Assembly: GCA_002049455.2 (NCBI GenBank)
Contig: KV918906.1
Coordinates: 118,983 to 182,982 of the forward strand
Length of the DNA stretch: 64,000 nucleotides
Source of the DNA: Porphyra umbilicalis
Lineage: Eukaryota > Rhodophyta > Bangiophyceae > Bangiales > Bangiaceae
Direction of reading: 5' to 3'
The notes beneath the pieces are model-generated. The model was given only the letters and a program-made list of their open reading frames with translations. It was not told the DNA's origin and did no database searches. Shown here piece by piece: positions 22,811 through 62,732 of the stretch. Each line of letters begins with the position of its first letter. Position 1 is the stretch's first letter. A program made the position numbers and the translations under genes.

Positions 22811-24359
22811 CGTCGGAGGGGGGAAGGTGATTGACGATGAAGAGAAAACGTGGCGGGGGGGGGGGGGCGGGGCAGGTACCGCCAACCGAGAAGGAAGCGC
22901 AGGTGCGGCGCCGACGGGTGAGTAGTCTGGTGTGGACGCGGGGCTGTGTGGGACGAGGTCAGCGGATGGCGTTGACGGCGGCCACCCCCAGCTCTCTTGT
23001 ACCGGTGCCGGTCATCAGCGGGCGACCCCAACCGCCGCCGATGAGCGGCAGACGGGGGGGGGCGGCGAACCGCCGCTGCTGGTGGCGCCCGCCGCCTGCC
23101 CCGTCCGCAGCGCACCCCCCCCACGGCGTCCGCCGCTGCCCACCCTCTCGTCCGCACCCGGCACGCCGCGTGAGGACCAGGAAGAATGCACACAACGGCC
23201 GAACCCCGGCCGGCGGTCATGGCGTGGGCTGGTCTGGGAACCGCGTCCAAACAGGCGCCCGGCAGGGACGCGGTCGCCTTGCACTCGGGCGCGGCATGGA
23301 CGCCTCCATCGTGCAGACGGCGATGCCGCGCCCGACCGTGCCGGGTCGACTGCGGTGTGCATCCAAGGGAAGGTGCCGGGGTCGGCCCGCGTGAGTGCTC
23401 GGCCGGGTGGCAGGGGCAAGAATGCAGGAAGACGCGGCCGGATGCCGTCGTGCTCTCTCGTCTCATCTCCAACAGGCGGGCAGCGCGCTGCCTCGTGTCA
23501 GACAAAGTACGGCTCAACTGCTTGTGCCGGCAACAACAACTTGCTCAAATATTCCGACAGACATGCTGCTGGGCCGGTGAGGTGCAGCGAGATCGACCAA
23601 TCGCCAGCAGGCCTCTGTTTCAATCAGTGACAGGGTTCCGCCTGTTGTCCCCGCAATGAGCCCGAGCACACTCCGCCGCTCAGGCCGCTTTTTCGTGCGG
23701 CTATCTTGCGGCCGACAGACGCCATAACGAGCGCGGCATTGCAACGGGGGCTGGCCGTGCCGGCGCAGCGACGGCGGCGGCGGCATTCGTGCCAGCGGCG
23801 TGCGGTGCGCGTGGGAGGCGGCGTCGGGCGGGGGGCCTCCGGCGGTACCTGCAGCACCATTGCTGGGGAACCCCGCCTGCCCCGTGGGCACGAGCGCGTG
23901 TGCTGTGGAAGCTTGGTGGCAGCCTCTTCAGCGGGTACCTGTTCGGGACCCGACGCAGTCTTTCCTCCGCAGTGGCCGCCGTCGCGCAGTGGTGTGACGG
24001 CTCGTTGCGACCGCTTTTGACCGTCGGACGTACGCGGTGTCCGTCGTCTTCGCCCGCTCATTGGCCGGGCTCTTGGTTGGTGGTGGTGCTTCTCCCCGTC
24101 TCCCTCTCCGTCCCCTTCTTCCGTCTCCCCCCGGTTCTCCTGTTTCTACGCCGCCGGTTGATGTTCCGTCCGTTCCCCCGTCGTTGCCCCACGTGCTCTG
24201 ACTGCTTTGCCCTCTGCGATTGGGTATTGGACGGTTTGTTGCGGCTACCACTGTTGTGCGCTTGTCCGATCCGTTGGTCAATACGAGCGCGCCGCTTATC
24301 CTGCTGCGAACAGACCGTGGCGTTTCCCCACTCCCCCACTGTCACGTGTTGAGGTCGTC
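22811..24359. other. intergenic; diverged collagen 5' flank, then bZIP 5' region
   Basis: Positions 22811 to about 23170 align with the 5' flanks of collagen-like genes 1 and 2, including GTACAAGAG on the minus strand near 22998, at lower identity. From 23170 to 24359 no gene is recognised. The last few hundred bases would hold the promoter and leader of the bZIP gene. Confidence 0.55.
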
Positions 24360-31805: not shown

Positions 31806-33822
31806 CCTGGAGGCGGCCGTGGCTACCTCTGAGCGCGCCTCGAGACGCTTTATGGGCGCTGATTGGGGATGTCGAAGCTTTTGATGGTGCTCGGATCGTG
31901 AGGTCCCATGGCTGCCAGTCGGTTCTTTGGGTCATGCCCATTCGCGCGAGGCGCGTGCGGACCACACACTTGGACTGCGCGGGAGCTGCCTCCACTCGCA
32001 TGCGGAGGGGTCCTGGCCTGACCCCTGTTGGACACTTGGCCGCTCAGCGGCAACGCGGCGGTTCGTGCCAAGGGGAGTCGTCGCCGTTCTCACCATCTGA
32101 GAGCGGGCCCGACAGTGCCACAATGGTCGCCATCATGGGTCCTGATGACTCCGCAAATATACCCAAACTAAATATCTGCTGAACACCGGGGAATGGCAAC
32201 GATCACAACCCACAAGAGATCTCCAGTGTCCGACCGCCTCGCCAATCGTCGAGAGCTGAGAGATGGTTGGACGAGGCCTGCCACTATCTTCAATACTTGT
32301 TTGTTTTCGACGAGCTGAAGTCCAGCAAAAAGCACTCGTCCTGTTCTTGTCAGGAGAGAAATTATCGGAAAAGACGGCAGTGCATAGCAAAGACGAAGTT
32401 GAACCTCACTTACTGGAACAGTATGGCCTTCAAGTGAATCGTCCCACTGACGAGTCGGTATGGTCCCTCCGCCAATAACTGGAGAAGCACAAGGGTGCGC
32501 TCTGTGCGATTGATTGTCTCAGACGTCTGTTCTTCAGAACCGACGCTTCCTTTTTTGGCCGCATCCACGATACTGCCGCTGCATTGCACAGCCATGTGGA
32601 AGGGGAACAGGAGGTGAAACGTACATGTGGTTGGTTGGGAATGCGGTTCTGGTGGTCTGCAGACGAGCTTCCGCACCCAGTAATTGGCACATCGACAATA
32701 CTCTGCAATCACTTGTCTGGAGTGACGTGGCACTTGATGGCAAGTCAATTATGAGTGACTGTTCTCGTACTCGTGAACTCGCAGGAATAGGAACGAAGAA
32801 TCCAATATGAAACTTGTCTTGTGGCATACCATTCCGAACTCTTCAATCAAAGAATTTGAAATTCACATGTTTGCGGTTGCCCACGTGATATCACGTACTC
32901 GTTGATTGGCTGGCCTAAGGCCTGGCCCGACTTCTGTGACATCGGTCTTCAGCCGCCCATTGGCCACGCCCTCGGCCGAGTCTTTCGGCCAACAGGCCAC
33001 AGGTGTTGGACCATTTGCCCCTGTCGCAGCCGTCGCAGGCGACAGCTGGGAGCCGTGCCAGCCCACGCCGTGGCCAAAGGGTGCACGCACAGCAAACTCC
33101 CACGCCGATGCAGGCTCCGTGGTGGCGACGGCGGAGAGCAGGGTCGTGACGAGGGCCAGGACCGTGCAGCTTGGACCCTGAACCTCCTGTGCGAAGCTCT
33201 CCCCCAGCAGCCCCCTGAGAGCCCGTGCTCAGCCGCCTGGCCTAGTGTGTGGGGGTGTTGTGAGGGGACGCCTCCCACGCTGGGGGTGCCGCCCGCTAGC
33301 GCATGCTGCTGGCACGACGTAGTGGGGGCGGGGTCGGGAGGGCACGCTCCTCGGCCACTCTCGCTGTAGTGTGGCGTCGCGGGCCGCACGGTTTAGGTGC
33401 GGCAACGCCTGGTTCACCTGTGGATTCACGACGTCTGCTCTTACGAGCGCGTGGTCACGGGAAGCAGGGGGTGGAGCAGTCCCTCACCTGGTGTTGCAGG
33501 TCCCCTACCGTCGCCCACGCCGCCCCTCACTTGTTCAGGTCGTCAATCTCGGTGACTGGGCGGGCCCCTCCACCGTCACTGCGGACGCTGCCTGTCGTGC
33601 CCCCCTTTCGGTTGTCTTGACCGTTCACGTTTGTGTATTTCTTTTGTCTGGCCCGTTGTCGATCCAGTGCTGGGTCGGCTGGTGTCGTCGCTCCCACTCG
33701 CGTGTGCATCCTTCTGTGGTCAACGTCTCGCGTCGTTGTTCCCTCTTCCCGCCTTAGCCACTCCCGCCTGGCTTTCTGTCCACCCACTGTCTTATCATCC
33801 TGGCGTGTGCTGGTACGTCGCC

Positions 33823-35403
33823 ATGAGCTTTGCGCCAACCTACGGCTGGGACGGGGCGACCGTGGAGCTCGCTGGCCCGCCCGTGGGCTTGGGGAATGGC
33901 CCGGCAGGCGCTACCCTGGCGGCTGCTTACGAAGTCGATGGGGGCGACAGAGGTGGGTGTCCGGCGGAGGGCCAGGCCGCTGACGCCGGTGGGCTGGGCG
34001 CCACCCGCACGCTGGCGGCTCCGTCGCCGCCGCGGCCTCCAGAACCGGCACTCACGGAACCTTCGGCGGCGGGAGTGGAGGCGGTACAGGCGCTGCCGAC
34101 AGCGGTACGTCCGCCGTCGGCAACACACCCGCCGCGGCGGACCCGGCCCATGGGGCCATCCGCAGTCGATGGGGGGGTTGGGGGTATGGCCTCAGCAGCG
34201 CTTGGCGGCGGTGTCTGGAGCGGCAGCGGCTTGAGCGGCGTTGGTGGTGGGTTTGGGTACGGTGGCGGTGGCGGTGGCGGTGGCGGTGGCGGTGGCGGTG
34301 GCGGTGGCGGTGGCGGTGGCAGTAGCGGTGGCGGTCCCGGCGGTGGCGGTCCTGGCGGCAGCGGTGACGACCAAGGTCTTGAGAGGCAGTTGTTCGTCTT
34401 CGACTGGATCCAGGAATCCCATGACCAATGGACAAAAGCGACGCTCTCCGAGTTTTTTGAAGCGTGCCGTTCCTCTGAACTCGGCGACGAAGCGTTTCGT
34501 CACTGGCTGGAGGACCGTGCGGTGCTCTCCAGCCGCCTCGCGTTGGCTGCCCGCCGCCTCGCAGGCCCCAGCGGCCCCATACCCCCATCAATCATCACCG
34601 TGGTCAACGAGGACGCCGTCCGCCTTGACGCACTGCTCACGTACTTTGGGCCGGACGGCCCCGGCGGCTCCCCGACGCAGCCGCCGGTCAATGGTGGGGC
34701 AGGGACCGGGCACACTGCCATCCCTCGCCCCGCCCCGTTGCCGACGATGGCCGGGGCGCCGGTGGCGCAGCCCGCGTCGCGCCTGTCTTACGCCGGCAAG
34801 CGACTCATGGACCTGATCGACTTGACGACGACCACCGCTGACACGCCCGCATGCCTGGGGCCGACCGCCATCTGGGCGCTGCTGATGGTGACCTGGCAGG
34901 GCTGGCGACTGACCCGCAATCGCGCGCTGCATGAGGCGCTGGTGGCGGCCGCCGAGGCTGCACGCGGCGGCCGGGCCGGAGGGCGAGGTGGCGCCGGAGG
35001 CGGACGCCGTGGCCGCGGCCGTGGCGGCCGCGGCGGCGGCCGCGGCGGCGGCGCGGCGGGAGGAGGCGCCGCCTCGTCTGGCCTGTCGCTGGCCGCCGGC
35101 GGTGGCGGCGTTGATGGGGGCGGTCTCAACCCACGCACTCGCGCTCTCGTTGACATCTTTACGCGAGAAGACGCGATGTACAGCATCATGGAACTCGAGG
35201 CGGTTCTCAGCGAGGTGCTGAATCAGCTGCCCGAGTCTGGGGTGGCCGAAGCACACCGGGCCTTCGAGCAAATCGTTGAACGGCTGGACGGCACGTACGA
35301 GCAAGCGCTGACCGTCAACGTGTCGGCCGTCAAGAGCATTTGCGACAAGTGCGGTCGGGCCGGGCATGGGGGTGACCGATGTACGTTTCAGAGCCACGTA
35401 TGA
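33823..35403 (+). CDS. glycine-rich protein with C-terminal CCHC zinc knuckle
   Basis: The protein has 526 residues in one frame. The N-terminal half is low complexity, with about 20 consecutive Gly encoded by a GGTGGC hexanucleotide array (34260-34320). A middle region looks globular and helical (LFVFDWIQESHDQWTKATL, then FFEACRSSELGDEAFRHWLE). An RGG/GRG-rich stretch at about residues 385-420 resembles RNA-binding RGG boxes. A second globular part (FTREDAMYSIMELEAVLSEV) follows. The C-terminus is CDKCGRAGHGGDRC, an exact C-x2-C-x4-H-x4-C zinc knuckle. Zinc knuckles of this kind bind RNA or single-stranded DNA and are common in retroelement Gag and in RNA-processing proteins. No protease or reverse transcriptase is nearby. 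The gene could be a domesticated Gag or a host RNA-binding protein. Confidence 0.55.
   Translation: MSFAPTYGWDGATVELAGPPVGLGNGPAGATLAAAYEVDGGDRGGCPAEGQAADAGGLGATRTLAAPSPPRPPEPALTEPSAAGVEAVQALPTAVRPPSATHPPRRTRPMGPSAVDGGVGGMASAALGGGVWSGSGLSGVGGGFGYGGGGGGGGGGGGGGGGGGGGSSGGGPGGGGPGGSGDDQGLERQLFVFDWIQESHDQWTKATLSEFFEACRSSELGDEAFRHWLEDRAVLSSRLALAARRLAGPSGPIPPSIITVVNEDAVRLDALLTYFGPDGPGGSPTQPPVNGGAGTGHTAIPRPAPLPTMAGAPVAQPASRLSYAGKRLMDLIDLTTTTADTPACLGPTAIWALLMVTWQGWRLTRNRALHEALVAAAEAARGGRAGGRGGAGGGRRGRGRGGRGGGRGGGAAGGGAASSGLSLAAGGGGVDGGGLNPRTRALVDIFTREDAMYSIMELEAVLSEVLNQLPESGVAEAHRAFEQIVERLDGTYEQALTVNVSAVKSICDKCGRAGHGGDRCTFQSHV
34260..34322 (+). repeat. GGTGGC hexanucleotide array
   Basis: About ten tandem GGTGGC units in frame within the zinc-knuckle gene, coding for poly-Gly. 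Confidence 0.85.
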
Positions 35404-36113: not shown

Positions 36114-39100
36114 CTACACGTTGTCCGCGGACCGCGTGTGCACCACGTACAGCTCCCCCTCCCCATGGAGAGCGCCTTGCAAGACCTGCGGCGCGCCGAG
36201 GGCGCTGTCCAAGATCGCAACGACAGCCCCAATCCGGCGGAAGACGGCCGCGCGGTACGCCGCATCGCGCCGCAGCCGCGCGGCAACCGACTTGTCACTC
36301 ATCGACGGCCGCGGGGGCTCGACGCGCGCCGCAGCGGGCTCCCCAGTGTCCACAGCCTCCTCCATCACGGCTCCATTGGCGCCAACGATACCCCGAAACG
36401 GGGCTGGGTCGGCCGACTCGCCGGCGGCCACCTCCAACTCAATGATCGAGCCCGGCGACCGGGCGGCGGCGACAAAAAGGGCGTCGACGGACACGACCGC
36501 CTGCACAAGCACCGCCATTGCTGCCCGCTCGTGGGGCACGCCCGACACGGCGCGCGCGGAGGCGGCGGCAGGGGACCAGAGGCTCCCCCACACCCGCCGC
36601 ACGGCCGCCGCCACCGAGTCGGGGTCGTTGGCCGCCACCGCCACAGGCGGGCCGTACAAACCGGCGCCACCGTCTGCCGCCGAGTCGTTGCCGCTTGGGT
36701 AGAGAAGCAGCGCCGCATCGCGGGGGAAGGCCGCCTGAATAAACGCCATGGCGCCCCGCGGTACGGTCGTCGACGACTCGATCCACTCGCACGCCTCTTC
36801 GGCAGCAGCCGCCGCGTCGTCGCCCGCCGCGGCAGCTTCATACGCAGCTGACAGGTTGGCAAGACTCGTCGTTGCGGTCGCGGACCGGGTCGCTGCGGCG
36901 ACGGCGGCAGTGTAGATGCCAAACGGTATTACTACCGATGGGGGGGTGAGGAAGTTGTCGCCGTCGGCGGCGAGGCGCTCAAGCGTGCCCGCTGCGTCCG
37001 CAATGGCGCCGCCCGTTGCGGGAGAAATAGCAGCGGCGGGAAGGACGGCCCTGGCCACCTGATCCACCTCCCACACCTTCACCGTCTCGGTCACCGTCGG
37101 AAAGCCGCCACCCTTGCCCGCTGGCATGGGCCACAGGCCCGCGGCCTTGTTGCCGCGGGATGACGAGAAAGACGATGAAAAGAAGCTCGCCGTCGACGTC
37201 CCCGACATTGGCGTCTTGGTCGGCAGATGCGCCGCGCTGCTAGAGATGGGTGCCGACACTCGGGAGCTACGCGTAAAGGAACGCACCGATGACACCGAAC
37301 TGCGCGAAGTGTACGTTGACTTGCTAGAGCTCTGTCGCTGCGAATCATGCGGCGGCGTGGTGGCAACTGTCGCCGGCCCAAGGGTGACAGGTACCGCGTC
37401 CCCTGTCGACTGCCCGCCCGCCGTCCTGGCCCCACTCGTCACGGACCAGGTCACGTACTTCTTGGGACGGGACAAGCCCGTCACCGCACTCCTGGCGTCC
37501 GCGGCGGCCTGGTGCAGCTTGGCCGCAGTCGATTGCTGTGAACCTTTGTCGACTGCCACCGTCTTCTCGGCGTTGGTAGAGCCCAAGTTCGCTCTCTCGG
37601 TATTGGTGACATGCTGCGACCGGATTGCCGTCGTCGTCGAAGCCGTTGCGCCCGTCGTGGAGGCTGTCTTGGACGTGACGCTGGACGTCTTGGAGTCGGT
37701 CAAACCTCTATCTGCCTCCTTGGCGTCGGTGACGGTTGGCTGCAACGTGGAGTCGGCCTTCGGCAGCACCTTTCGGGCACCTGCCTCCATCGACGCCCCA
37801 ACGCCTGCAACCACTCCTTTTGAATGAGCACAGCCTCCAACCATTTCGGCATCGGCTGCATGCGTAATCGGCTTCTTGGCCTTGGACTCGGCGGCAGCCT
37901 GGTGTGTCTTGGACGCAGTCATCGTCTTCGTCTTGGTGGCACTCGCCTTGCCCGACCTTTCGTCGCCCGTGACTCCACTAGCGTCGGCGGCACCCTCCGC
38001 GGCCTTCTCAGAGTCGGTGGCGCCCGCAACCGCCTTCGTGGTACCGGCCGAGTCCGCGACCGCCTTTTTGTCAGCCACAACGGCCCGCTGCGTCTTGGAC
38101 GTGCCTCCCACCTTCTCGGCATCGGCTGCATGCGTAATCGGCTTCTTGGCCTTGGACTCGGCGGCAGCCTGGTGTGTCTTGGACGCAGTCATCGTCTTCG
38201 TCTTGGTGGCACTCGCCTTGCCCGACCTTTCGTCGCCCGTGACTCCACTAGCGTCGGCGGCACCCTCCGCGGCCTTCTCAGAGTCGGTGGCGCCCGCAAC
38301 CGCCTTTGTGGCACCGGCCGAGTCCGCGGCCGCCTTGGAGCCGGCGACACCGGCCCGCTGCATCGTGGACGTGGTGGACGACTCGGCCGTCGAGGAAGCC
38401 CCGCGGGACGCCCCGACCCCCGTGGCCGCCTTCTTGGCGACGGTCGAGCTCGGCACATCGCGCGTGTCGGCGGCCGTAACGTCCGAGTCGCTGCGAGCGC
38501 CCGCTAGCGACGCTTTGGCCGACGCGACCGTCGCCCTCACCGGCTCGGCCGTCCGCTTCGCCGTGTCCCACGTGGCCGCAGCCGAACACTTGGCACTCGA
38601 CGCCAGACCCTTGGCTGCACTACGTGCGTCGCCCAGAGCGCCGTCGGCCGCTTCGCGCACGTCGGCGGCGGCAGCCTTGGCCACACCGAGGGCACTCACA
38701 GTCGACTGCTTGGCCGACTCGGCCGACCCCTTGACGGCACTGACGGCGCTCAATGCCACATTACCAACCGCCGTGCCGGCAGCCTCCACCGCATGAGTGT
38801 TGCCCGTCAGCGCCTTGTTGGACTCGACGACCGCCGTGGACCCCTGGTGGTCGGTGCCAGCGGCCGACGAGCCAACCCCGCCGCCGCCGCCACCGCTGCT
38901 GCCACTGCCGCTGCTCTGGTAGCTCCAGGTGCTCGTGATCGTCGTGGTTTGGGTGCCCCCTGTGGAGCGACCCGTCGAGCTGCCCCTTACATTGAACGAC
39001 GACTGATCGGCGGACGTGGCCGTGGAGCGGGCGGTGGCCGTCGTGCCCACATTGCCACCGGTAGCGTCACTGGTGCGCTCCACCACCGCCCGCCCGTCTT

Positions 39101-39788
39101 TGGATCTGGTCTCGCCGTGCGTGGCCGGCTTGGCGTCGTGGGCGTTGCTAAACACCGAGCTGATGGCCAAGCCGACCTGCTGCAGTGGCCCCTTGCCGTG
39201 CTTCGCACCCTCTTTTGACGGACTGGCGCCCATCGTCGTTGACGCGGCGCCCTTGTCCGAACCCGCGGCGGTCGGTTTGGCCTTGGCGACGGCCTCCTGC
39301 AGCTTGCTAGCCGTCGGCGTGTGCACCGCCCAGTCCACAACGCCGTCACTCGGCGCGGCAACAGTGGCCGCAGTGTGACCGTTGGCCGCCCCGCTCACCG
39401 TCGCCCCCCCCACGGGCGCACGAGGCAGCACCCCAAACCAGCCGTCGTCAACAACAATCACGTCCCCCCCCGCGGTCGCCTGCACGGCCGCCACGTCCTC
39501 CACCGTCAGCGTGCGCACGGTGGCCGTGTCGTCAACCTCCCAGCCGACGCCCCCCACGCCGTCATGGACTTCGGGCGCGACCACGTACTTGTACGTCAGG
39601 GGCAACGCGACGCCGCCGAGGTCCACCGGCTCCGTCGTCCAGATGGGGAAGATGGATTGATCCGTGCACAGCGGCGGGCCGGCGGTGAGCACCCAGTCGC
39701 CAACGACCGGCGAGCCGCCCGAGAGGACAATGTGTTGGCCGGGAATGGTAAAGTCGGCGCGAACAATGAACCGCACGGCGGGGGCCAT
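36114..39788 (-). CDS. CBM20 starch-binding protein with degenerate glucan water dikinase domain
   Basis: The protein has 1224 residues. Residues 1 to about 95 are a CBM20 starch-binding domain (VRFIVRADF..GQHIVLSGGSPVVGDW, then PIW, TYKYVV). Residues about 95-890 are Ala/Thr/Ser/Lys-rich, LEA-like low complexity containing two 90-residue tandem repeats. Residues about 898-1224 match the C-terminal nucleotide-binding domain of phosphoglucan water dikinase (GWD3/PWD): VVIPFGIYTAA, GAGLYGP, VRRVWGSLWSPAAAS, AAMAVLVQ, and the terminal LYVVHTR. The phosphohistidine domain (HVSVRAR-type motif) is absent. The ATP-site residues are altered: RSSAN reads YPSGN, the Glu after VQ is Ala, and GLGET is not preserved. 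A catalytic dikinase is therefore unlikely. It may be a starch-granule scaffold or regulator. No plastid leader is seen, consistent with cytosolic floridean starch. An upstream in-frame ATG at 40013 would add 75 Arg/Pro-rich residues. Confidence 0.8.
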   Translation of the reverse strand: MAPAVRFIVRADFTIPGQHIVLSGGSPVVGDWVLTAGPPLCTDQSIFPIWTTEPVDLGGVALPLTYKYVVAPEVHDGVGGVGWEVDDTATVRTLTVEDVAAVQATAGGDVIVVDDGWFGVLPRAPVGGATVSGAANGHTAATVAAPSDGVVDWAVHTPTASKLQEAVAKAKPTAAGSDKGAASTTMGASPSKEGAKHGKGPLQQVGLAISSVFSNAHDAKPATHGETRSKDGRAVVERTSDATGGNVGTTATARSTATSADQSSFNVRGSSTGRSTGGTQTTTITSTWSYQSSGSGSSGGGGGGVGSSAAGTDHQGSTAVVESNKALTGNTHAVEAAGTAVGNVALSAVSAVKGSAESAKQSTVSALGVAKAAAADVREAADGALGDARSAAKGLASSAKCSAAATWDTAKRTAEPVRATVASAKASLAGARSDSDVTAADTRDVPSSTVAKKAATGVGASRGASSTAESSTTSTMQRAGVAGSKAAADSAGATKAVAGATDSEKAAEGAADASGVTGDERSGKASATKTKTMTASKTHQAAAESKAKKPITHAADAEKVGGTSKTQRAVVADKKAVADSAGTTKAVAGATDSEKAAEGAADASGVTGDERSGKASATKTKTMTASKTHQAAAESKAKKPITHAADAEMVGGCAHSKGVVAGVGASMEAGARKVLPKADSTLQPTVTDAKEADRGLTDSKTSSVTSKTASTTGATASTTTAIRSQHVTNTERANLGSTNAEKTVAVDKGSQQSTAAKLHQAAADARSAVTGLSRPKKYVTWSVTSGARTAGGQSTGDAVPVTLGPATVATTPPHDSQRQSSSKSTYTSRSSVSSVRSFTRSSRVSAPISSSAAHLPTKTPMSGTSTASFFSSSFSSSRGNKAAGLWPMPAGKGGGFPTVTETVKVWEVDQVARAVLPAAAISPATGGAIADAAGTLERLAADGDNFLTPPSVVIPFGIYTAAVAAATRSATATTSLANLSAAYEAAAAGDDAAAAAEEACEWIESSTTVPRGAMAFIQAAFPRDAALLLYPSGNDSAADGGAGLYGPPVAVAANDPDSVAAAVRRVWGSLWSPAAASARAVSGVPHERAAMAVLVQAVVSVDALFVAAARSPGSIIELEVAAGESADPAPFRGIVGANGAVMEEAVDTGEPAAARVEPPRPSMSDKSVAARLRRDAAYRAAVFRRIGAVVAILDSALGAPQVLQGALHGEGELYVVHTRSADNV
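37849..38388 (-). repeat. 270-bp tandem direct repeat, two copies
   Basis: The second copy begins 270 bp after the first (shared start CGGCATCGGCTGCATGCG at about 37847 and 38117). Identity is very high, and the repeat encodes a 90-residue unit rich in Ala, Lys, Asp and Thr. The in-frame length preserves the CBM20 gene. Confidence 0.85.
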
Positions 39789-41758: not shown

Positions 41759-43777
41759 TCACAGTCGCGCCCGTGAGTTGTGGGCGACCCAGTCGCCCGC
41801 AATCGGCGCGAGCAGCGGCTCGGGGATCCCAAACGCGTCGACGAGCCCCCGTGCGACGCGCGCGAGCGCAGCGCAGCCGTCCTCGACTGCCGCCTCGACA
41901 GCGGCCGCCTCATCCAACCGCAGCGCCCCCGAGCGGAGGTACCCCGGCGACGCCCCAATGAGCCCGAGTCCGTGCAAATGCACCGCCAAAGCGAGGGGCT
42001 CCGCCACCCCCGCCCGCCCGTCGCGCGCGGCGGCGGCGGCGGCGGCCGCCACCGCCGCGCTGCCGACGGCGTGGCCGTGGACGGCCATGACCGCCGCCGC
42101 CGTCGCCGCCGCGGCGGTGGCGACCGCGTTCCACGCGCCAAAGGGGCTCGCCACCTTGGACGCGGCCGCGTAGGCGGCCGCGAGGTCCGTCATGCACGTG
42201 GCCGCGTGCGCGCGGAGGACGGACGCGACAAAGGCGGGCGACGTCACGTCGCGCGGCCCGCCGCGCGCCGGCGGTAGCGGTGTGGACCCGACGCGGGGCG
42301 CGTTGAGGAAGGCGAGGAGCTCCCCAAAGGGCGGCAGCGGCGGCGACGGCGACGGCGCGCCCGGCTTGCGGCGCGCGCCGAGCACCGCCGCGTAATCCCC
42401 GAGCAGCGCCTTGGCAACGGTGTGCATCAGCACGAGGTTGTCCCCCTCAAACGTGCAGCTAATGTCGTGCGTGGCACGCACCCCCGCGATGCGGTTGTCG
42501 GCCTTGTAGCCCTGCCCGCCACACGCCTCGCGGCACTCTTGGAGCGTATCCCGCGCGTGCCACGAGCACAGCGCCTTGGCGCCCGCGGACAACACGTGGA
42601 GGCGCTTGGTGACGCCGACCCGCCGCCCGTCTGCGTCCTTGCGCTCCGAGTGGGCGTTCCACTCGGCCTTGAGGGCGTCCGCCGCGAGCGCGTACACGAC
42701 CGTTGTGGCGAGCGGCACCATCAGCCGCCGCCGGTGCGACGCATAGTCGAGCAGCCGCGCCTCGGGCGCGCCCGGCGACGGCGCAAAGGCACGGCGGGAG
42801 AGGGCGTAGCGGACGGCAATCGTGAGCCCGAGTTTGGCCTGGTTGTTGACGAGCCGCGCAATGCCCACCCGCCCGCCCGTCAGCGCGGCCAGCTGCGCCG
42901 CAAAGCGCGCGTCGGGGGTGGCGTGGCGGGACGTGTAGACGCCCGCGCCCGAGACGGCATTCTCCCCCGCGAGCATCTGCCCGCGGGGCACCCACACGTG
43001 GTCAAACCAGATGCGCCCATTGTCGACGCCGTTGAGGCCGCCCTTGACCCCACAGTCAGCGGTCGTGACGCCCGCCACGGGCGACCCGTCGTCGGCGCGG
43101 ATGCGGACGACAAACGGGTGCACGCCGACGGCCACACCGCCGACCGTCAGCTGCGCAAAGGCGGTCGTCCAGCGGGCCGTCTCGGCGGCGCCGCCGACCC
43201 AGTACTTTTGGGCCGTCTCCCGCGGGGTGTGGAGGATAAAGCCCCCCGACGCCCCATCCCACACCGCCGTCGTCTCGATGCCCCGCGCGTTGGAGCCGTG
43301 CCCGAGCTCCGTCAGCGCAAAGCAGCCGCGCATGGTGTGGGCTTCCACGCCGGGGAGCCACGCCGCCGCTTGGTCGGCCGACCCGAGCAGCGCAATGGTG
43401 CCCCCAAAGAGGCCGACGTGCACGCCAATGGCCACCTCGAGGGAGTGGTCCAGGTACGCAACGCACTCCATGACCGCATCGTGGCGGGAGCGGGCGGCGG
43501 CGCCCGCGCCCGCGGGCGCACCGGGCAGGTGGGAGGTGAGGCAGCCGACGAAGAGGCCGGCGCTGACCATCCGGTCCCACCGGGCGCGCGTCCGCGCCCG
43601 CTCGTCCGCCGTTGCCTCCCCATACCTCAGACCAAAGACGGGCTCCTCAAAGAGGGTAAAAACCCGCCGCCGCACCGACTCTGTGGCGGGGTCGGTGAGG
43701 AGTTGGCGGAGGCGGGGAACGTCTAGGGGAATGGGTGTGGTAGAGGCAGGGAGGGGGGACGGCGCCGGTGCCCCCAT
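41759..43777 (-). CDS. ACX3: peroxisomal acyl-CoA oxidase, ACX3-like
   Basis: The protein has 672 residues, the usual family length. It catalyses FAD-dependent conversion of acyl-CoA to trans-2-enoyl-CoA with H2O2 production, the first step of peroxisomal beta-oxidation. The motif FALTELGHGSNARGIETT (about 153-170) and TAQKYWVGGAA (about 188-198) belong to the FAD/acyl site. GLNGVDNGRIWFD (about 248-259) and ECREACGGQGYKADNRI (about 414-430) are family signatures. TFEGDNLVL carries the catalytic Glu at about 444. The wording of these motifs is closest to plant ACX3, the medium-chain type. The C-terminus ends Ala-Arg-Leu, a good type 1 peroxisome-targeting signal. No intron. The start at 43777 gives a short Pro/Ser leader before the conserved region. 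Confidence 0.9.
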   Translation of the reverse strand: MGAPAPSPLPASTTPIPLDVPRLRQLLTDPATESVRRRVFTLFEEPVFGLRYGEATADERARTRARWDRMVSAGLFVGCLTSHLPGAPAGAGAAARSRHDAVMECVAYLDHSLEVAIGVHVGLFGGTIALLGSADQAAAWLPGVEAHTMRGCFALTELGHGSNARGIETTAVWDGASGGFILHTPRETAQKYWVGGAAETARWTTAFAQLTVGGVAVGVHPFVVRIRADDGSPVAGVTTADCGVKGGLNGVDNGRIWFDHVWVPRGQMLAGENAVSGAGVYTSRHATPDARFAAQLAALTGGRVGIARLVNNQAKLGLTIAVRYALSRRAFAPSPGAPEARLLDYASHRRRLMVPLATTVVYALAADALKAEWNAHSERKDADGRRVGVTKRLHVLSAGAKALCSWHARDTLQECREACGGQGYKADNRIAGVRATHDISCTFEGDNLVLMHTVAKALLGDYAAVLGARRKPGAPSPSPPLPPFGELLAFLNAPRVGSTPLPPARGGPRDVTSPAFVASVLRAHAATCMTDLAAAYAAASKVASPFGAWNAVATAAAATAAAVMAVHGHAVGSAAVAAAAAAAARDGRAGVAEPLALAVHLHGLGLIGASPGYLRSGALRLDEAAAVEAAVEDGCAALARVARGLVDAFGIPEPLLAPIAGDWVAHNSRARL

Positions 43778-45324: not shown

Positions 45325-47551
45325 CCTATGTATCTTTCGTCGTGTGAAAACAGTTCTATCGTTTTGCAAGTCCAGGGTGTTTTCGCGAACGCGCTTTCAG
45401 TAGCGCAATGACCCTGGAGCCAAGGTCTGGTGTTCGAATCTCGCAACAGGATTCTTTGGATTGGGCAGTGTGGCCGCGCACAAGCGTCTGGCCCGCGCGG
45501 AGGACGACCTGCCGCGAGACCAGCTTTGCCACCGCGCGCGCGCGCGCAGTGGCTATGCGCGCATAGCCCGCAGGCGCCCGCCACAGCCCTCCTATGCCTG
45601 CTTGCCTCGTTGCCGAGCGCCGCGTCGCCCACCCCCCCCCTCAAATGGTTTGGCAGCCAACGGCCGCGTGGGACCGCCGCCAAGACGAGCGTATTTTCGT
45701 GCGAGGCGCCGCTCCCGCAAACGCAACCACCCCCCCCCCCTCCCGCTTTGTGATCGACGCCGCCCGCTGCCAAGCCACTCTGACGCCGCGCCCCTCCCCA
45801 GCCCCGCGCTCCCCCCCGCCACCCTCTTGACCAGTGCCCCCCACCATGGGCTTGCAGGCAGACACCTCTTCCGTCACGGTATCCGACACCTCCCCCCTGT
45901 ATCCCGACCCGAGTGCGCCCCCCAAGCCCCCCCCCCCCCCTCTGAGGGGGCGTCTGCTGGCGGTAAAAAGCCCCCCCCCCCCCCGCGGACGCGGGCGCGG
46001 ACGACGACCGCGGCCCGTGCTTCTTCCGCTGCACGTGCTGCTGCTGCTCGTGCGGCTGCGGGTGTGGGTGCTTCCCGTTGCTGCGTCGGCGGCGGCCGCG
46101 GCGCGCGCGGCGGTAGTGGCGGCGGCCGCAACGCCCGCCGCCGCCGCAGGCAAGGGCGGCAACGCGCGACGCGCGCTGCTGCGGAGCCGCTGCCTGCGTG
46201 CAGACGACCGCGACGGGGGGGTGCTGCGGGCGGACGTTGCGCGGGCGGCGCGGGGCGGCCGCGAGGGGCAGGCCGGGGGGAGCCGCCCCGCCACGCGGGA
46301 GGGCGGGGGCCCCGTCGGGTAACAACGACCCGTGGGGCGCTGCCAAACACCATTGCCGGGATTGCGTGGGTGTCGTGTAGCTTTGTTGCCCGCCCCCGAC
46401 CGTCGATGCATGTGACAGCGTTTGGTGCCGGGGGGCTTGCGCGGGAGAGAGGCCTCTTTTAGTGCCTTTTGACGGAGGGACCTCTCTTTCCCTCACTCCA
46501 CTGGCGCGCTTGCGGGCCGCAACAAGGCCGACCCCACCCCCGCGTCCTCAGCTTGTCCACCCGCCACACAAACGCAGCGGCGGCCGCGGATCCGCCTCGC
46601 GACACCCGCCCGCTGCGTCTGCGGCGCGGCGGGGGGGGTCGGCGCCCCGCGCGCGCCGCGGCCCCGCCGCGCCCTCCCCCCCACCAAATAATCCCGACGC
46701 GGGGCCCCGCGCTGCGGGGCTCGGCGGAAATCCACGCCGCCCACCGCCGCCACGGCGGCGCCGCGGCCGCCGCGCCGGTCGGCGGTCCCCCCCCCCGCCC
46801 ACGGGGCCCTCCCCCGCTCGGCCTGCCGCCCTTGCATTGTATCGGCACCGACAGCCAGAGCATGCGGCCGTGTGTGTGTGTGGGCGTGCCGCAGCGCCGT
46901 CGCCCGCGGTCGCCCGCGTCGCCGCGGCGGCGTGCATGCATTCAAGAGCACTGCCCGCCGCGGGACGGCACCCCTCGCCCGACCGTGGGGGCGCTCCCAC
47001 CGGCCGCCCGCGCCACGCAAGCGCTGCCGCCGCTCACGGGCGGGCGTCGGTCCCTCCCCGGCGCGCCCACCCCCCGTTCCCCCCCCCCCCCATGAGGTGG
47101 TTCTTCCTCACCAACGGGGCGACGCCGGCGACGACGGCGCCCTGGTGGCGCGGGCTTAACTCGCCACGCGCGGGCCCCCACCGGGTGTCCGTCCCGCCGC
47201 CCAGCGTCGCCGCCTCGCCGTCGACCGCACCCGTCGCCGGCCGCCCGACGCAGTCCGACGCGGCGGCTGCCGCCTCTGCCGTCTCGCCGCCGCCGCCGGT
47301 CGCCGTCGCCGTCGTCCCCCCGGCGTCTGCCGACACCCGACCACCGGCGCCGTGTGCCCACCCGTCGCCGCTCCCGGTCGAGGCCGCCGCCCACCCCGCC
47401 CTCGCCGCCGCCGCCGCCACCACCACCACCACCACCACCACCACCACCACCACCCGCGACGTTGCCACGGCGGTGGCGCGGTGGGAGCCGGCCGCCCCGC
47501 CCCCCCCGGCCGGCGCGCGGCATCAAAGCCGCCGTTTGCGCCTCGCGGCGC
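45325..47551. other. very GC-rich region, gene content unresolved
   Basis: Numerous C/G runs of 8-14 break every frame. One frame at about 45846-45930 begins MGLQADTSSVTVSDTSPLYP. Another at 46018-46073 encodes a remarkable cysteine string (see findings). A CAC/ACC trinucleotide array is at 47416-47452. I cannot assign a gene with confidence. Confidence 0.4.
47416..47452 (+). repeat. ACC/CAC trinucleotide array
   Basis: About twelve tandem ACC units. Confidence 0.85.
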
Positions 47552-48514
47552 CATGGTCATCTCCATCGTCGCGCCGCCCGCTGACGTGGCCGCCGCCGCG
47601 GCGGCCACGGCCGCGGCAGCCCCCCCCCCCGCCCACCGGCGACGGCGGCACCAGCGGCCATGACGGCGGCGGCGGCGGCGGCCGCCGAGGGCACGCCGAC
47701 GGGGACCCCCCCCCCCCCCCCCCCCGCGTGCGGACGCCGGCACCGTCACCAAAGAGGACGACCGCGTGCGGCAGGTGAGCTACCCATTCGGCCGCACCCC
47801 CTCCCTCAAGGCCATTGCGGAGCGCTACGAAGCGGCCGCCCGCAAAAGCTCCATGGCGTCGGACGATGGGGACGGCGGCCGCCCCGGCGGTGCCGCCGCC
47901 GCCGTGACGGGCGGCCGCCGCGCCGTCGACGCGGGCGCGGGGCCGGCGTCGGCGCCGGGGGTGGTCAACGCGGGGGCCCTCTGCGCGGCCGCGGCGCGGG
48001 CGCCCAAAACGCTCACGCCCGCAATGCTGTCGGCGGCCATGGCGTCGGGCGGGGGGACCCCCCCCCCCCCCCCCCGCCACCGACGGCGACGGGGCGGGGC
48101 GCGCCCACTTTAGCCGCCGCCGCTCGTCGAGCGCCGCCCGGTCGGCGGCGGTCCGGGGCGCCGACGACCTCTCCGCCGCCGGCAGCGACGTGACGGGCCC
48201 GTCGGCCGACGCGCACGCGACGCCGCCGGTGCGGCGCACCGGCAGCGGGGCGGCCAAGGCCCCGCACGCGCGCGGCGGCGCCACGAGCGCACCCGCCGAC
48301 GCGGCGGGGGGGGCGCCGCCGCCGCCCCTCGGCCGGCAGGCGTCCAAGAGCCGCGGCGACCCGCCGCCCGCGGGGGGGGGGAGGCCGCCCCCCCGCCGCT
48401 CCGCCGCGGGCCGTCCAAGAGCCGCGAGGGGGGGGGGGGGGGGGGGACGACGCCCCCCGCGCCCTCCGCCGCGTCGCCTCCAAGCACCGCAAGGAGGCAG
48501 CCGCGGCGGCGGCG

Positions 48515-48551
<37 letters not shown>

Positions 48552-49002
48552 GCGATGGGGCGGCGGCGGCGGCGCCCGCCGTGCCGGCGACGGCGGCCAC
48601 GGCCGGGCCACCGTCAACGTCGACGGCCTCGGCTGCCACCGCCGAGGTGGCGCCCAAAAAGCTCCGGCGGGTGCCGAGCCGCGGGGCCCCCCGCGGCGGC
48701 GGCGGCGGCGGCGCCGAGCCGCCAACGACGACGAGCCCGTCGTCCGCCTCGGATTCCGCCTCGTGCGGCAGCGGCACCGTCGCCCCGCCCTCGTCAGACG
48801 CCTCGTCGGCGGCGTCGGCGCCGGCGTCGGCGACGGCCACGTCGGGGGTGGGGGGGCGGCGGCGGCGGGCGGCGGCGGTGACCGCGGCCGCGGCCGCCGC
48901 ATCGCGTCCATGGCCGCGGATGTGGCGGCGCTGCGCGCGCAGGTGATCACCATGGGGGTGCTCGCGGAGCGGCTGGCCGAACAGCTGTCGCGGGAGGTGT
49001 GA
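47552..49002 (+). CDS. uncharacterised low-complexity protein, frame-broken at C/G runs
   Basis: Protein-like segments follow one another on the + strand in different frames, separated by C/G runs (about 47705-47724, 48057-48077, 48373-48383, 48429-48446). They are: MVISIVAPPADV at 47552; TKEDDRVRQVSYPFGRTPSL and AIAERYEAAARKSS at about 47748-47853; RAHFSRRRSSSAARSAAVRG at about 48098-48160; ALRRVASKHRKEAAAA then APKKLRRVPSRG at about 48458-48690; and IASMAADVAALRAQVITMGV followed by LAERLAEQL, a short coiled coil ending at 49002. The shifts are likely indels in homopolymers. The start is uncertain; an ATG at 47093 is also possible. Ser/Arg-rich patches suggest phosphorylation sites. Family not recognised. 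Confidence 0.35.
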
Positions 49003-49461
49003 GGTGGCCACCTGGCGCCCCCCTCCCCCCTCGTAGGGGGGGGGGGGGGAGCGCCGTCGGGCGGCGTCGCGGGGTCGGGGGGGGCGTCTCGACGGCCACG
49101 TGGCCAAGCCGCAGGGGATACAGGATGTGGGATGAAAAGGCCGGGTTTTTCGTGCATGTGCCGGTTATTACGGTCCACAATTGACGTTCGTGGTCGTACT
49201 TTTGGGTCGTGTGCTTTGGCGACGCGTTGATCCACTCTCTGACACACACTCAGCGGTGGTGCCGGCGGCAGCCGCAAAGCCACCGGCCGCCGTCGGCGAC
49301 GGTCGTCGTCTGACGGGTGCCCGGCAGCGCGTGGGGCGTCAGGGCCACTTTCCTCGCAAGGGGGGAACCCTACATCTCTCGACTCGGTTGTGCTGCTGAC
49401 GGCGGGGTGCGCGCTCGACGCTGTTGCCGTCGTCCCCGGGATCCCCCCTGGCGCCGGCATC
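49003..49461. promoter_or_regulatory. intergenic; upstream region of the isoleucyl-tRNA synthetase gene
   Basis: About 460 nt with reduced GC in the middle (49120-49260). It lies between two same-strand genes and presumably contains the promoter and leader of the synthetase. No specific motif identified. Confidence 0.4.
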
Positions 49462-52400
49462 ATGGCAGCGGCCGACGGTGTCGCCAACGGCGGGCCGGCG
49501 GCGCCCCCCCCCCCGAGATCCCCAATGAAACCCCCGATCAGTTCTCCTTCCCCGGCACGGAAGAGACCATCCTGGCCTACTGGGACTCCATCTCTGCCTT
49601 TGAGACGGCCAACAAGCTGTCGGCCGGCCGCCCCGTCTACTCCTTTTACGACGGCCCGCCGTTTGCGTCGGGTCTCCCCCACTATGGCCACATCCTCGCG
49701 GGCCACATCAAGGACGTGGTCACCCGCTACGCCTACCAGACGGGCCACCACGTGCCGCGGGCGTTTGGGTGGGACTGCCACGGCTTGCCCATCGAGTATG
49801 AGATTGACCAGCGGCTCGGCATCACGTCGGCGGAAGACGTGGAGCGGATGGGCGTCGCCGCCTACAACGCCGAGTGCCGCGCCATTGTCATGCGCTACTC
49901 GGGCGAGTGGGAGACGGTCGTGCGGCGCATCGGGCGGTGGATTGACTTTCGGGGCGGCTACAAGACGCTCGACGCGACCTACATGGAGAGCGTCTGGTGG
50001 GTGTTTAGCGAGCTCCACAAAAAGGGGCTCGTCTACCGCGGCTTCCGCGTCATGCCCTACTCGACGGGCTGCACGACGCCGTTGAGCAACTTTGAGGCGA
50101 ATCAAAACTACAAGGACGTGGACGACCCGGCCGTGACCGTCTCCTTCCCGGTGCTTGGGGGGGCGCCGGCCCCGGCGGGCGCCGACGGGGCGGGGAGCGA
50201 CGCCGACGCGGACGTTGCCGCCCGCCTCGGCGCGTTTATCGCGTGGACGACCACCCCGTGGACGCTGCCGTCCAACCTGGCGCTGTGCGTCCACCCGGAA
50301 CTGACGTACGTGACCGTCGACGAGGCGGCGACGGGGGCACGGTACACCTTTGCGCGTGCCCGCCTCGACGCCCTCTACCCGCCTCCGAAAAAGAGCAAAA
50401 AGGGCGCGCCGCCGCCGCCGCCGCCCGTCACGGTCGTGGCCACCCACACGGGCGCCGAGTTGGTCGGCGTGCGCTACGCGCCGCCCTTCCCCTACTATGC
50501 CGACGCGTACGCGGGGCGCGCCTTTCGGGTGCTGGCCGACACGTACGTGACGGACAGCGACGGGACGGGGGTGGTGCACCAGGCGCCCGCGTTTGGGGAG
50601 GACGACTACCGCGTGTGCGCGGCGGCGGGGGTGATTGACAAGGGCTCCTCCGACCTCCCCTGCCCGGTCGACGCGGCGGGCCGCTTTGTCGAGCCCGTGT
50701 CGGACTTTGTCGGCGTCGCCGTCAAGGCGGCGGACAAGCCCCTCGTCGCCGCCCTCAAAGCGTCGGGCCGCCTGGTGCGCTCCGAAACGCTGCGGCACTC
50801 GTACCCCTTTTGCTGGCGCTCCGAGACGCCCCTCATCTACCGGGCAGTGCCCGCCTGGTTCGTCGCCGTGGAGGAGCTCAAGGCGCGGCTGCTCGGGAAC
50901 AACACGCTCTCCCGGTGGGTGCCGAGCGCCATCCAAACCGCCCGCTTTGGCAACTGGCTCGAGGCGGCGCGGGATTGGAATGTGTCCCGCAACCGCTACT
51001 GGGGGACGCCCCTCCCCATCTGGCGCGACGAGGAGTCGGGGGAGATGCTCGTCGTCGGCAGCGTGGCGGAGCTCGAGTCCCTCTCGGGGCACCCGCCGGG
51101 GTCCTTCCCGGACCTCCACCGCGAGTCGGTCGACGACGTGACGATCGTGTCGCCGACCAGCGGGCGCACCCTCCGGCGGGTGCCCGAAGTGTTTGACTGC
51201 TGGTTTGAGAGTGGCTCCATGCCCTACGCGGCCGTCCACTATCCGTTTGCCGACGGCTCGGCGGAGCGGCTTGCCGAGCGCTTCCCCGCCGACTTTGTCG
51301 CGGAGGGTGTGGACCAGACGCGCGGCTGGTTTTACACCCTCCTCGTTCTGTCCACGGCGCTGTTTGATAAGCCGCCGTTTAAAAACTGCGTCGTCAATGG
51401 CATGGTGCTCGCCGAAGACGGTAAGAAGATGTCCAAGCGCCTCCGCAACTACCCCGACCCGATGGGCGTTGTCAATGCGCACGGCGCCGACGCCCTCCGC
51501 CTGTACCTGATCAACTCGCCGGTCGTCCGCGCCGAAGGGCTCAACTTTCGCGAGGTCGGCGTCAAGGACGTGGTGCGGGACGTGCTGCTGCCGTGGTACA
51601 ACACGTTTCGGTTTTTCGTGCAAAACGCGCGGCGGCTGGCGGCGACGACTGGGAAGCCGCTCGCGCGCGTCGCCTACTCGTTTAGTGGCAACGGCGACGG
51701 GGCGGACGGGGCGGCGGTGGCCAACCCGATGGACGCGTGGATTACGTCGACACTGTCCACCCTCATCACTCACGTGCGCAATGAGATGGCGGCCTACCGC
51801 CTGTACACGGTCATCCCCGAGTTGCTCTCGCTCATTGACTCGCTCACCAACTGGTACGTGCGGCTCAACCGTCCGCGCCTCAAGGGGTTGGCCGGCCCGG
51901 ACGAAATGCGGACGGCGCTGGCCACCCTCGGTGAAGTCCTCATCACCCTATCCATCCTCATGGCGCCGTTTGCTCCCTTCTTTGCCGACCATACCTTTCA
52001 AGCGCTTCGGTGCGTGGCACCCCCGTCGCTCGCGTCCACCGCCTCGGTCCACTTTGTCCAAATGCCCGTTGCGTCCGCGGCGGCCATTGACACGGCTGTC
52101 GAAGCGTCGGTCGGTCGCCTGCAAGAGGCCATCACCCTGGGGCGGCTGGCGCGGGAGCGGCGGGCGCTCGCCCTCAAGCAACCACTCGCCCGGCTGGTCG
52201 TTGTCCACCGCGACTCGGCCGTCCTCGACGCCGTCCGTGGCCTTGAACCATACGTCACGGCTGAGCTCAACGTGCGGTCCGTCGAGTACTCAACGGATGA
52301 GGCGCAGTACCTGCAGCTGACGGCCGACGCAGATGGGCGGGCGCTGGGCCAGAAGCTCGGCAAACGCTTTGCGGCGCTGCACAAGGCCGTCCGCGCGTTG

Positions 52401-53165
52401 GGTCATGATGACGTGGCGCGTCTGGAAGTCGACGGCCGCCTCGCGTCCCTCGACGAGATTGCCGGCCAGCCGCTGAGCCGGGAGGACTTTAAGATCAGCC
52501 GAAAAGTCAAGGCCGAGTATGGGATCAGCGGCGGGGAGTGGGAGGCGGCGGCCAGCGGCGGTACCGGCGGCCTGTTGGTCCTCCTTGACACGGTTGTGCG
52601 GGAGGATTTGGCCGCGGAAGGCCTCGGCCGGGAGCTCATCAACCGCATCCAAAAGCTCCGCAAGCGCTGCGGCTTGGAACCAGAGGACTGCGTCGAAGTC
52701 TTTCTGGGCGTTGCCGACGACGATGGCGCCGCCGCCGCCGTCGCCGCCGGCAACAGTGCGCCTGCGCTCAACCTCCCCGCCCTCCTCGCCGAGCGGGCGG
52801 ATGCGATGGGTGCCACCCTCCGCACCCCGCCACCTGTCGGCATCGACGCGCTTGGCCCCGGCCAGGTGGTCATTGCGGACGAGGTGGTGGAGCCGGTCGG
52901 CGGCGTCCCCGTGCGGGTGGTCCTCGCCCGCGGGGGGGGAGTCGTGCCAAGCGCGGGTGCGATTGCGGCGACGGTGGGGTCGGACGCTAGCGCCTGTCGC
53001 CTCCTCGCGACCGTCCTGACCATGCGCACGGCGGGCGTGGGGGGGGTGCCCGAGTCCGACGGGCGCGTGACGCTGCGGGTGGGGGGTGTGGAGGCGGTCC
53101 TCGAGCGGGGCGTGCACTACTTTGGGAGTGTTGCGGAGCGGCTGGCTGCAGGGGCGCCCCCGTAG
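49462..53165 (+). CDS. IARS1: cytosolic isoleucyl-tRNA synthetase
   Basis: A class I synthetase of about 1235 residues, the size of eukaryotic cytosolic IleRS, charging tRNA-Ile with isoleucine. After the acidic start come GRPVYSFYDGPPFASGLP and the HIGH-equivalent HYGH (about residues 74-77), FGWDCHGLPIEYE, the editing-domain motifs TTPWTLPSNLALCVHP and GTGVVHQAPAFGEDDY, the zinc/anticodon-side regions, WFESGSMPYA, EGVDQTRGWFYTL and KMSKR (codons near 51424-51440). The C-terminal part (INRIQKLRKRCGLEPED) is typical of the eukaryotic form. The natural ATG at 49462 (MAAADGVANGGPAAPPP) and the conserved frame (EIPNETPDQFSFPG) are separated by an 11-C run at 49504-49514 that puts them out of frame. 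One more or two fewer C would join them. Without that, the first in-frame ATG is at 49317. Confidence 0.92.
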
Positions 53166-59505: not shown

Positions 59506-59984
59506 GGCGGGAGGGACGAAGTGATAACAGCAGTAGTGCCAGGCATCAGCGGGACGGGTGGTGTCGGACGTTGGGGACGAAAAAGAGGCTGGGGGTGTGA
59601 CGACACGAGCCAGGTGGCAGCGGATGTCAAGAGAACGACAGCTTCTTCTCTCGGTGAAGATCCTGTGGAAGATGGAGCGCAAAGTAGCTCCCCTGTTGAA
59701 CAGAGACAGATGATAAAACCAACAGCGAAACACAATGCATACTCTTTCTTGCAGGAACAGCCGTCACCCACTCAAGCGGTGGGCTGGGTATCACGCGTCG
59801 CACCAGTTGGGCCCCTGCTCGAGGACAGAGACTATGCGCATCGCTTAGAGTGTCACACTGGTTTCTCGACGGACAGACGAGAAGACTGCGTTTGTACAAA
59901 CGCGTCTGTACACAAACATAAGCAGCTTAAAGAAAACAAACCAGCGCGTCAGAACGGCCCTTAGCTACCAACGCTCCAGGCCCA
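59506..59984. promoter_or_regulatory. intergenic; BCKDHB upstream region and P450 3' flank
   Basis: About 480 nt between two minus-strand genes. It must contain the BCKDHB promoter. No specific element recognised. Confidence 0.4.
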
Positions 59985-61804: not shown

Positions 61805-62732
61805 GGCAGGGGGTGGGGTTGGTTACGAAAACTAAAGGGTGCATGAGGGACGAGGCCGGGGATGGCAGTGAGCTCGGGCGCGCAAGGCGGTCAAAGCTGG
61901 CGCGCCGGCGCGCAGGCACGCCCCACCTACTGCCAACGCCAATGTCACTGGGGGGAGCGACTGAGCCAGGGGGGTATGCAGCGCGCTGGCCGATTGCCGC
62001 GGGCACCGACGGGCCCCCGAAGACGGCGTTTGCTCGCATCTTTCCACTCAGCGTCGGGCAGCGACGGTGCCGCCGTGCAAGCAGTGGCGGGGACGCCTAC
62101 TGGCCGACGGGAGCGAGCCTGGCGCAGCCGACACAGGTGTCAGCTCCAAGTTTGGGGCCAGCTGGGAGCGTCGGATGGATGCGAATGTGGCGTCCCAGCC
62201 GGCCAACCGGCGGTTCCGGTAGCCAGGCGGCCAGAGGGGGGAGACTTGAGCGTCCCCGCCAGCTGGCTGGTGGCGGTCGGCAGTCGGGCGAGCGCGAGAC
62301 GGTCAAGAGATACGGTGGGCGATGAGGTGCATGGTTGAATGCTGTGTGCACCAGATCTCTGCTGTAATTGATCTCTGTCACTCCAGAGTAGTAGAACATA
62401 CACCTTTTCGAACAAAACAACCCAGACTCCACCGTGCGGATGACCTAGAAACTTCCTCTATTCGCGGTCCAGCCGGGCCCACCGGACCAACCCCCGTGGG
62501 TCGATCGCCAACCACGCCGCCGAGTTGCACCCGCCTCGGCCGCCGAGGTCAGCGCCCGATCCGCGTCGCTCGCCGCTTCCACCCCTCCGCCGCGCCGCCG
62601 CTCTCTGCCCCGCACGCGTCCCTTGCGCCCGCCCGCGCCGCCGCCGACAACGACCACTCGCATCGGACGCTCCGACCGCCCCCCCCCCCCACCCCCCCCC
62701 CCCCCCCCCCCCCCGTCCCGCCACACAGTGCC
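61805..62732. promoter_or_regulatory. divergent promoter region between P450 and GrpE genes
   Basis: About 930 nt shared by two divergently transcribed genes. It has an A/T-richer pocket near 62320-62440 and a 27-nt stretch of C (about 62688-62714) just before the GrpE ATG. No specific regulatory site recognised. Confidence 0.45.

Follow-up and report, generated by a model that had tools for sequence, protein, structure and literature searches.

We analysed a window of 64,000 nucleotides from the red alga Porphyra umbilicalis (contig KV918906.1 of assembly GCA_002049455.2, forward-strand positions 118,983 to 182,982), and in it a gene whose product joins an N-terminal CBM20 starch-binding domain, a long low-complexity linker and a C-terminal nucleotide-binding domain (NBD) of the type found in phosphoglucan, water dikinase (PWD). 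The best overall explanation, which we hold with middling confidence, is that this gene encodes a pseudo-dikinase, a protein of the PWD lineage without catalytic activity, which docks on glucan through CBM20 and acts as a tethered adaptor through its NBD. A sequence-only reading of the same DNA had proposed the three parts in one open frame, and this architecture was confirmed. It had also proposed a non-catalytic, granule-bound protein; the PWD-type origin, the lack of a phosphohistidine domain and the degenerate ATP site hold up, whereas granule binding is only plausible and a role as scaffold, decoy or regulator is conjecture.

By its sequence the C-terminal domain, which ends LYVVHTRSADNV, is an NBD of the PWD type, as had been claimed. 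The Pfam profile PPDK_N matched the last 334 residues alone at 27.9 bits (cut-off 27) and was absent from the Pfam report for the whole 1224-residue protein. In the genome, where our searches covered 83.8 Mb of assembly, PPDK_N gave one match, at the window gene, with 28 bits. For comparison we used a plant PWD fragment and a 216-amino-acid piece of glucan, water dikinase (GWD; EC 2.7.9.4), both serving as provisional reference sequences for these enzymes; the reference PWD matched PPDK_N at 119 bits. Homology of the window NBD to PWD was found by BLASTP (31% identity over 297 columns, 97.4 bits) and by shuffling, the local score of 249 comparing with a mean of 40.4 (standard deviation 6.2, maximum 64) for 200 shuffled sequences, which gives a z of 33. 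The z was 15.7 against the reference GWD piece, and 1.4 to 8.5 against seven bacterial NBDs (n = 7, locus L022, nearly identical to L021, being left out). The motif order in the window NBD, with YPSGND..AGLY ahead of VQA, is the same as in the reference PWD and unlike that of the reference GWD, in which the RSDSNGEDLEGYAGAGLYDS motif follows the VQE motif; that GWD arrangement was not found in the window NBD. A GWD origin was rejected because the motif order differs and the score is lower than for the reference PWD.

The sequence-only reading had called for a structure prediction. For the predicted model of the NBD (pLDDT 64, pTM 0.65, from 9 sequences), the best solved match in Foldseek was the ATP-grasp domain of rifampin phosphotransferase (RPH; 5hv1, E 1.4e-9, TMq 0.59, rmsd 9.0), a second RPH structure (5hv6) gave a TMq of 0.63 and an rmsd of 7.6, and the ten chains matched at E up to 0.001 were all rifampin phosphotransferase, PEP synthase, PPDK or HpeI. 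The ATP-grasp fold thus seems, on the weak support of this model, to be kept in the window NBD, its site aside. NCBIfam returned no family for the whole protein and nine rows for the last 228 residues (models of PEP synthase, prodigiosin ligase and rifamycin phosphotransferase), of at most 24.2 bits and all far under their cut-offs. Scans of viral contigs gave 26 pattern matches for alignment A1 and 4 for the last 228 residues, with no relatives among them; the scan of genome contigs with alignment A1 gave at least 592 stretches, 8 of them confirmed.

The ATP site was compared in alignment A2, which holds the window protein and nine comparators, namely the reference plant PWD and eight bacterial NBDs. 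Where all nine comparators have K, R, E, D, E and Q, the window protein has I929, Y1030, N1034, V1202, Q1204 and H1217, that is, the Lys, Arg, Asp/Glu and Gln of a PWD ATP site were not found there. In RPH-Lm, Lys22, Arg117 and Thr136 position the ATP phosphates; the Lys22Ala mutant has no activity, and the Arg117Ala and Thr136Val mutants do not perform the second half-reaction (PMC4844700). The window residues at these three positions are Ile, Tyr and Pro; the register of Arg117, like that of Glu297, agrees with RPH chain numbering by hand count, Thr136 was placed on P1047 by eye in that register, and Lys22, which precedes the RPH alignment, was matched through A2 only. The ATP site is therefore degenerate, as had been proposed, but I929, Y1030, N1034, P1047, V1202, Q1204 and H1217 are better evidence of it than most of the residues first named. 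The change of RSSAN to YPSGN had been correctly noticed and is important. The change of VQE to VQA is not diagnostic (the comparators have E, R, Q or P there), nor is the loss of GLGET (its first Gly is kept, and some comparators have Pro in place of the second), and both were rejected as key evidence because these columns vary. Judged from these residues, the window protein is very probably catalytically dead.

The claim that the phosphohistidine domain is gone was also upheld. GWD1_pHisD was not among the Pfam matches of the window protein up to E 10, and the reference PWD, as positive control, matched it at 107.9 bits. Aligned with the His domain of the reference PWD, the linker scored 27, under the shuffle mean of 34.9 (the whole protein, not shuffled, scored 40). 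A His domain hidden in the linker was rejected because the linker scores below shuffled sequence; thus, neither Pfam nor linker shuffles detected the phosphohistidine domain with catalytic His that belongs to a PWD.

The N-terminal CBM20, which is equally a part of PWD, is well recognised: PF00686 matched residues 1-130 alone at 33.8 bits and the whole protein at 28.9 bits (cut-off 23.3). Trp32, Lys87 and Trp99 are among the starch-binding residues of laforin (PMC8703398). In the window CBM20, GDW keeps its Trp, YKY its Lys and GWE its Trp; these are the likely equivalents, assigned by motif in an alignment of eight CBM20 stretches from the same genome that did not include laforin. Starch binding is plausible because these three residues are kept, and the window protein is likely to bind glucan via its CBM20.

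The linker comprises 760 of the 1224 residues (62% of the protein) and has the low complexity that had been described. It is rich in Ala (20.4%), Ser (14.7%), Thr (12.8%), Gly (10.1%) and Lys (7.4%), with a pI of 9.84 and a net charge of +27, and aromatic residues together with Ile, Leu and Met make up only 2-8% of the 102-residue blocks from 103 to 816. A Pfam scan of the linker gave nothing above threshold and a single row, HisKA_3, at 10.7 bits (cut-off 24). The label 'LEA-like' (late embryogenesis abundant) is appropriate for composition but not for membership, which was rejected because Pfam, read up to E 10, matched no LEA family in the linker. The two copies of a tandem duplication in the linker, compared on 82 codons, show 11 differences, with a pN (nonsynonymous) of 0.033 and a pS (synonymous) of 0.080, much of the core being identical.

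The gene coordinates given by the sequence-only reading are right, and the gene is a single open frame on the minus strand (Table 1). The context of its ATG is strong; upstream, the frame stays open to a GTG at 40013 with no further ATG in between, and for this reason a transit peptide is not expected unless an upstream exon exists. This predicted lack of a transit peptide fits floridean starch, which is cytosolic. With codons 1-1200 taken in twelve blocks of 100, third-position GC is 68-88% throughout, also in the linker. Second-position GC is nearly as high in some linker blocks (0.72 vs 0.74 in codons 801-900), so that the coding signal is weaker there. The open frame and its start context agree with a gene of one exon.

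Table 1. Features of the proposed pseudo-dikinase gene (window coordinates) and the basis of each assignment
Feature	Position	Strand	Basis or remark
Whole gene	36114..39788	-	1224 codons + stop; first ATG 39788, context gaccATGgcc
CBM20 starch-binding domain, residues 4-91	39516..39779	-	Pfam CBM_20 2.9e-8; aligned to further CBM20 stretches from this genome
Linker, residues 131-890	37119..39398	-	Basic, low complexity; no Pfam domain; composition
In-frame tandem duplication in linker	37833..38373	-	TRF: 270 bp (90 codons) x 2.0, 94% matches
Degenerate PWD-type NBD, residues 891-1224	36117..37118	-	PPDK_N, BLASTP, shuffles, structure model
Core recognised by PPDK_N, 48 residues, 1055-1102	36483..36626	-	Pfam
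Ile929	37002..37004	-	ATP-phosphate Lys in 9/9 comparators
Tyr1030	36699..36701	-	Catalytic Arg (VRSSA) in 9/9 comparators
Asn1034	36687..36689	-	Glu in 9/9 comparators
Pro1047	36648..36650	-	Ser or Thr in 9/9 comparators; Thr136 of RPH-Lm; by eye from A2
Val1202-Leu-Gln1204	36177..36185	-	Asp and Glu in 9/9 comparators
His1217	36138..36140	-	Gln in 9/9 comparators; Arg1219, two residues on, kept

Queries with PF01326, PF00391, PF22973, the window NBD and the reference PWD and GWD detected neither a GWD nor a PWD with a His domain in the searched assembly, one phosphohistidine/dikinase search being without a positive control in its 14 genomes; one further row, at E 0.48, was unconvincing. The same searches did detect the degenerate window relative, at about 30%, and the starch genes sought as controls (CBM20 genes, a starch synthase type and a phosphorylase) were present. 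A P. umbilicalis GWD is in print (PMC7569903; PMC8703398), the GWD of the red alga Cyanidioschyzon is functional (PMC11986951), and three dikinase-type genes are listed for Neoporphyra haitanensis (PMC8703398), compared with one found in the searched P. umbilicalis assembly. Because of the printed GWD and of the three genes listed, we do not claim that a true dikinase is absent; the missing GWD is most easily explained by an assembly gap, which is the likeliest cause.

CBM20 matches numbered 10, on five contigs, one of which carries the window gene. From their translations, the genes include a trehalose-phosphate-synthase type (contig C34), a DPE2 type with two CBM20s (C74) and a laforin/SEX4 type with three CBM20s over three open frames (C555). 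On contig C133 (locus L007, 712-1833, minus strand) lies a short frame of CBM20 and low-complexity sequence, in the translation of which no enzyme domain was noticed; it is possibly another non-enzymatic glucan-binding protein. Two glucan phosphorylase genes are present on the same strand of contig C169, about 59 kb apart (60448-62583 and 119329-121464); one is listed for N. haitanensis (PMC8703398). Phycobilisome-linker matches numbered 12, with 4 on contig C665, which is plastid-genome-like, and 8 on other contigs, in keeping with a red alga.

Compared with PWD (GWD3; EC 2.7.9.5), which phosphorylates pre-phosphorylated glucan at C3, the window protein has the same N-terminal CBM20, C-terminal NBD and motif order, and of all the NBDs compared (reference PWD, GWD piece, bacterial) its own is nearest to that of PWD; it differs in that no phosphohistidine domain was found, the ATP site is replaced and a low-complexity linker takes the place of the PWD middle. 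PhPWD of N. haitanensis (ph11079.t1) is described with CBM20 and PPDK_N, no other domain being mentioned in the part of PMC8703398 covered. With 99.9 Da per residue it is the second lightest of the 35 genes in the table of that paper (98.7 for the window protein), but it has 1039 amino acids, a pI of 5.49 and one intron (PMC8703398), compared with 1224 amino acids and a pI of 8.49 here. PhGWD2 is equally light (100.0 Da per residue) with no CBM20 reported in the same part, and CBM20 is reported in TPS4, SEX4 and PWD (PMC8703398). By elimination, domains and light composition, the window gene is probably the orthologue of PhPWD, the latter being compared by its published description only. The text and table covered in PMC8703398 do not discuss the catalytic residues of PhPWD or a catalytic loss. 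At title and abstract level, we found no published description of a catalytically inactive or degenerate glucan dikinase, nor of a red algal PWD or GWD with CBM20 and a dead site. The gene type is known, a related seaweed probably having it on record as PWD; what would be new is a pseudo-enzyme branch of PWD.

LSF1, which is not known to be active, and BAM4/BAM9 differ from the window protein in having phosphatase and beta-amylase folds, not a dikinase fold. In Arabidopsis, LSF1, which is placed among the phosphatases, is a platform for BAM1 (PMC12892837), and BAM4 and BAM9, members of the beta-amylase family without measurable activity, regulate starch breakdown, BAM9 as a proposed activator (PMC8774843). 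BSG1 of Chlamydomonas is described as a PWD, with homology to CBM20 only and not to the catalytic-histidine part, and its deletion leads to abnormal granules; it has a coiled coil and, dikinase homology being restricted to CBM20, no NBD (PMC6374437). PspR of Haloferax mediterranei is a PEP-synthase-like protein turned regulator, but it retains the ATP-binding and His domains and binds DNA (PMC10948481).

In the mechanism that we propose, the protein would be cytosolic, as floridean starch is, and its CBM20 would dock on starch granules or soluble glucan. The long basic linker would serve as a tether giving reach, and the dead NBD would be a protein-binding head that recruits or restrains another glucan-turnover enzyme, in the manner of LSF1 and BAM4/BAM9. 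This adaptor or regulator role, proposed by analogy, is tentative. Several observations weigh against the explanation as a whole. The charge-hydropathy index of the linker, values below 0 denoting an unfolded chain, is 0.01 to 0.26 in blocks 103 to 918 and never negative; disorder is therefore not predicted by this measure, and the idea of a flexible tether draws solely on linker composition. Our confidence stays in the middle of the scale because the disorder index gives the tether no support. D1035, Q1096, E1119, G1123 and R1219 are kept in the site, and the comparators were eight bacterial loci, four of which form two pairs of near-identical sequence, and the provisional reference PWD. In RPH-Lm, the Arg117Ala and Thr136Val mutants keep the first half-reaction, with a 10-fold lower efficiency, and Glu297Ala is harmless (PMC4844700), so that no single replacement is proof of inactivity. 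The NBD model is of modest confidence at the pLDDT and pTM given above, with an rmsd of 7-9 Å for its best matches, and the match is not independent because the alignment behind the model contained relatives of the matched enzymes. The binding partner of the NBD is hypothetical, and the sequence evidence comes from a single species and a single locus.

A linker that makes up 62% of the protein (760/1224), basic (+27) and compositionally simple, would also suit a passive granule-surface or structural protein in which the NBD is a relic without a binding role, and another frame with CBM20 and low-complexity sequence exists in the genome, on contig C133. However, the likeness of the NBD to PWD is still strong (z 33), above what is expected of a free relic, and we consider this alternative unlikely. 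The dead NBD might otherwise act as a decoy or brake, retaining the face for a swivelling phosphohistidine domain and competing with a true GWD at the granule. The predicted fold is apparently kept and the site lost, and in this family a swivelling His domain docks on the ATP-grasp domain, but the docking face is thought to form on grasping ATP (PMC4844700), which is poorly expected of the window NBD. Furthermore, no GWD to restrain was found in the searched assembly, although one from P. umbilicalis is in print; a decoy is distinctly unlikely.

Replaced active-site residues and the absence of a His domain would also be found in a decaying PWD pseudogene. Decay is nevertheless improbable: the 1224-codon frame is intact, the 90-codon duplication is in frame, third positions are GC-rich, the CBM20 binding residues are kept (by motif) and N. 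haitanensis has a probable orthologue. An assembly or gene-model artefact would imply a real PWD whose His-domain exon is elsewhere or was lost in assembly. PhPWD has one intron (PMC8703398), so introns are possible, but the window frame runs unbroken from CBM20 to NBD, the searched genome gave no phosphohistidine match (one search being without a positive control), and an extra exon could not restore the replaced ATP-site residues; we regard such an artefact as very improbable. The same residues (Lys, Arg, Ser/Thr, Asp, Glu and Gln, all replaced) argue against an active dikinase that is complemented in trans by a phosphohistidine protein of its own gene. A swivel family could conceivably have its domains on separate proteins, but no separate phosphohistidine domain was found in the searched genome, and we give this alternative hardly any weight.

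Elsewhere in the window, an acyl-CoA oxidase gene occupies one open frame (41759-43777, minus strand), and a 590-codon frame with Gly runs and a CCHC zinc-knuckle-like end (33631-35403, plus strand), possibly gag-like, gave no Pfam match. A 1416-codon frame with no Pfam match (47523-51773, minus strand) overlaps, on the opposite strand, a gene for a class I tRNA synthetase (49317-53165, plus strand) and probably arises as a shadow frame in GC-rich coding DNA. Three frames matching Pfam Collagen at more than 200 bits each (6458-8392, plus strand; 15741-17360 and 21191-22885, minus strand) may be Gly-rich simple repeats and not genes. Part of a transketolase pyrimidine-binding domain was observed at 58834-59733 and a fragment of a cytochrome P450 at 59985-60983, both on the minus strand.

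It is possible, although we find it rather doubtful, that the gene catalogued as PWD in the Bangiales is a pseudo-dikinase as a class; C3 phosphorylation by PWD would then have been lost in this order, the enzyme would have become a long-tethered granule adaptor, and GWD and laforin/SEX4 would continue the phosphate cycle. If the pseudo-dikinase explanation is true, a dead dikinase whose starch-binding end is kept would add a new handle on floridean starch, one that is not enzymatic. The gene named PWD in Bangiales pathway charts may then phosphorylate nothing, and the reading of starch phosphate in these seaweeds would change.

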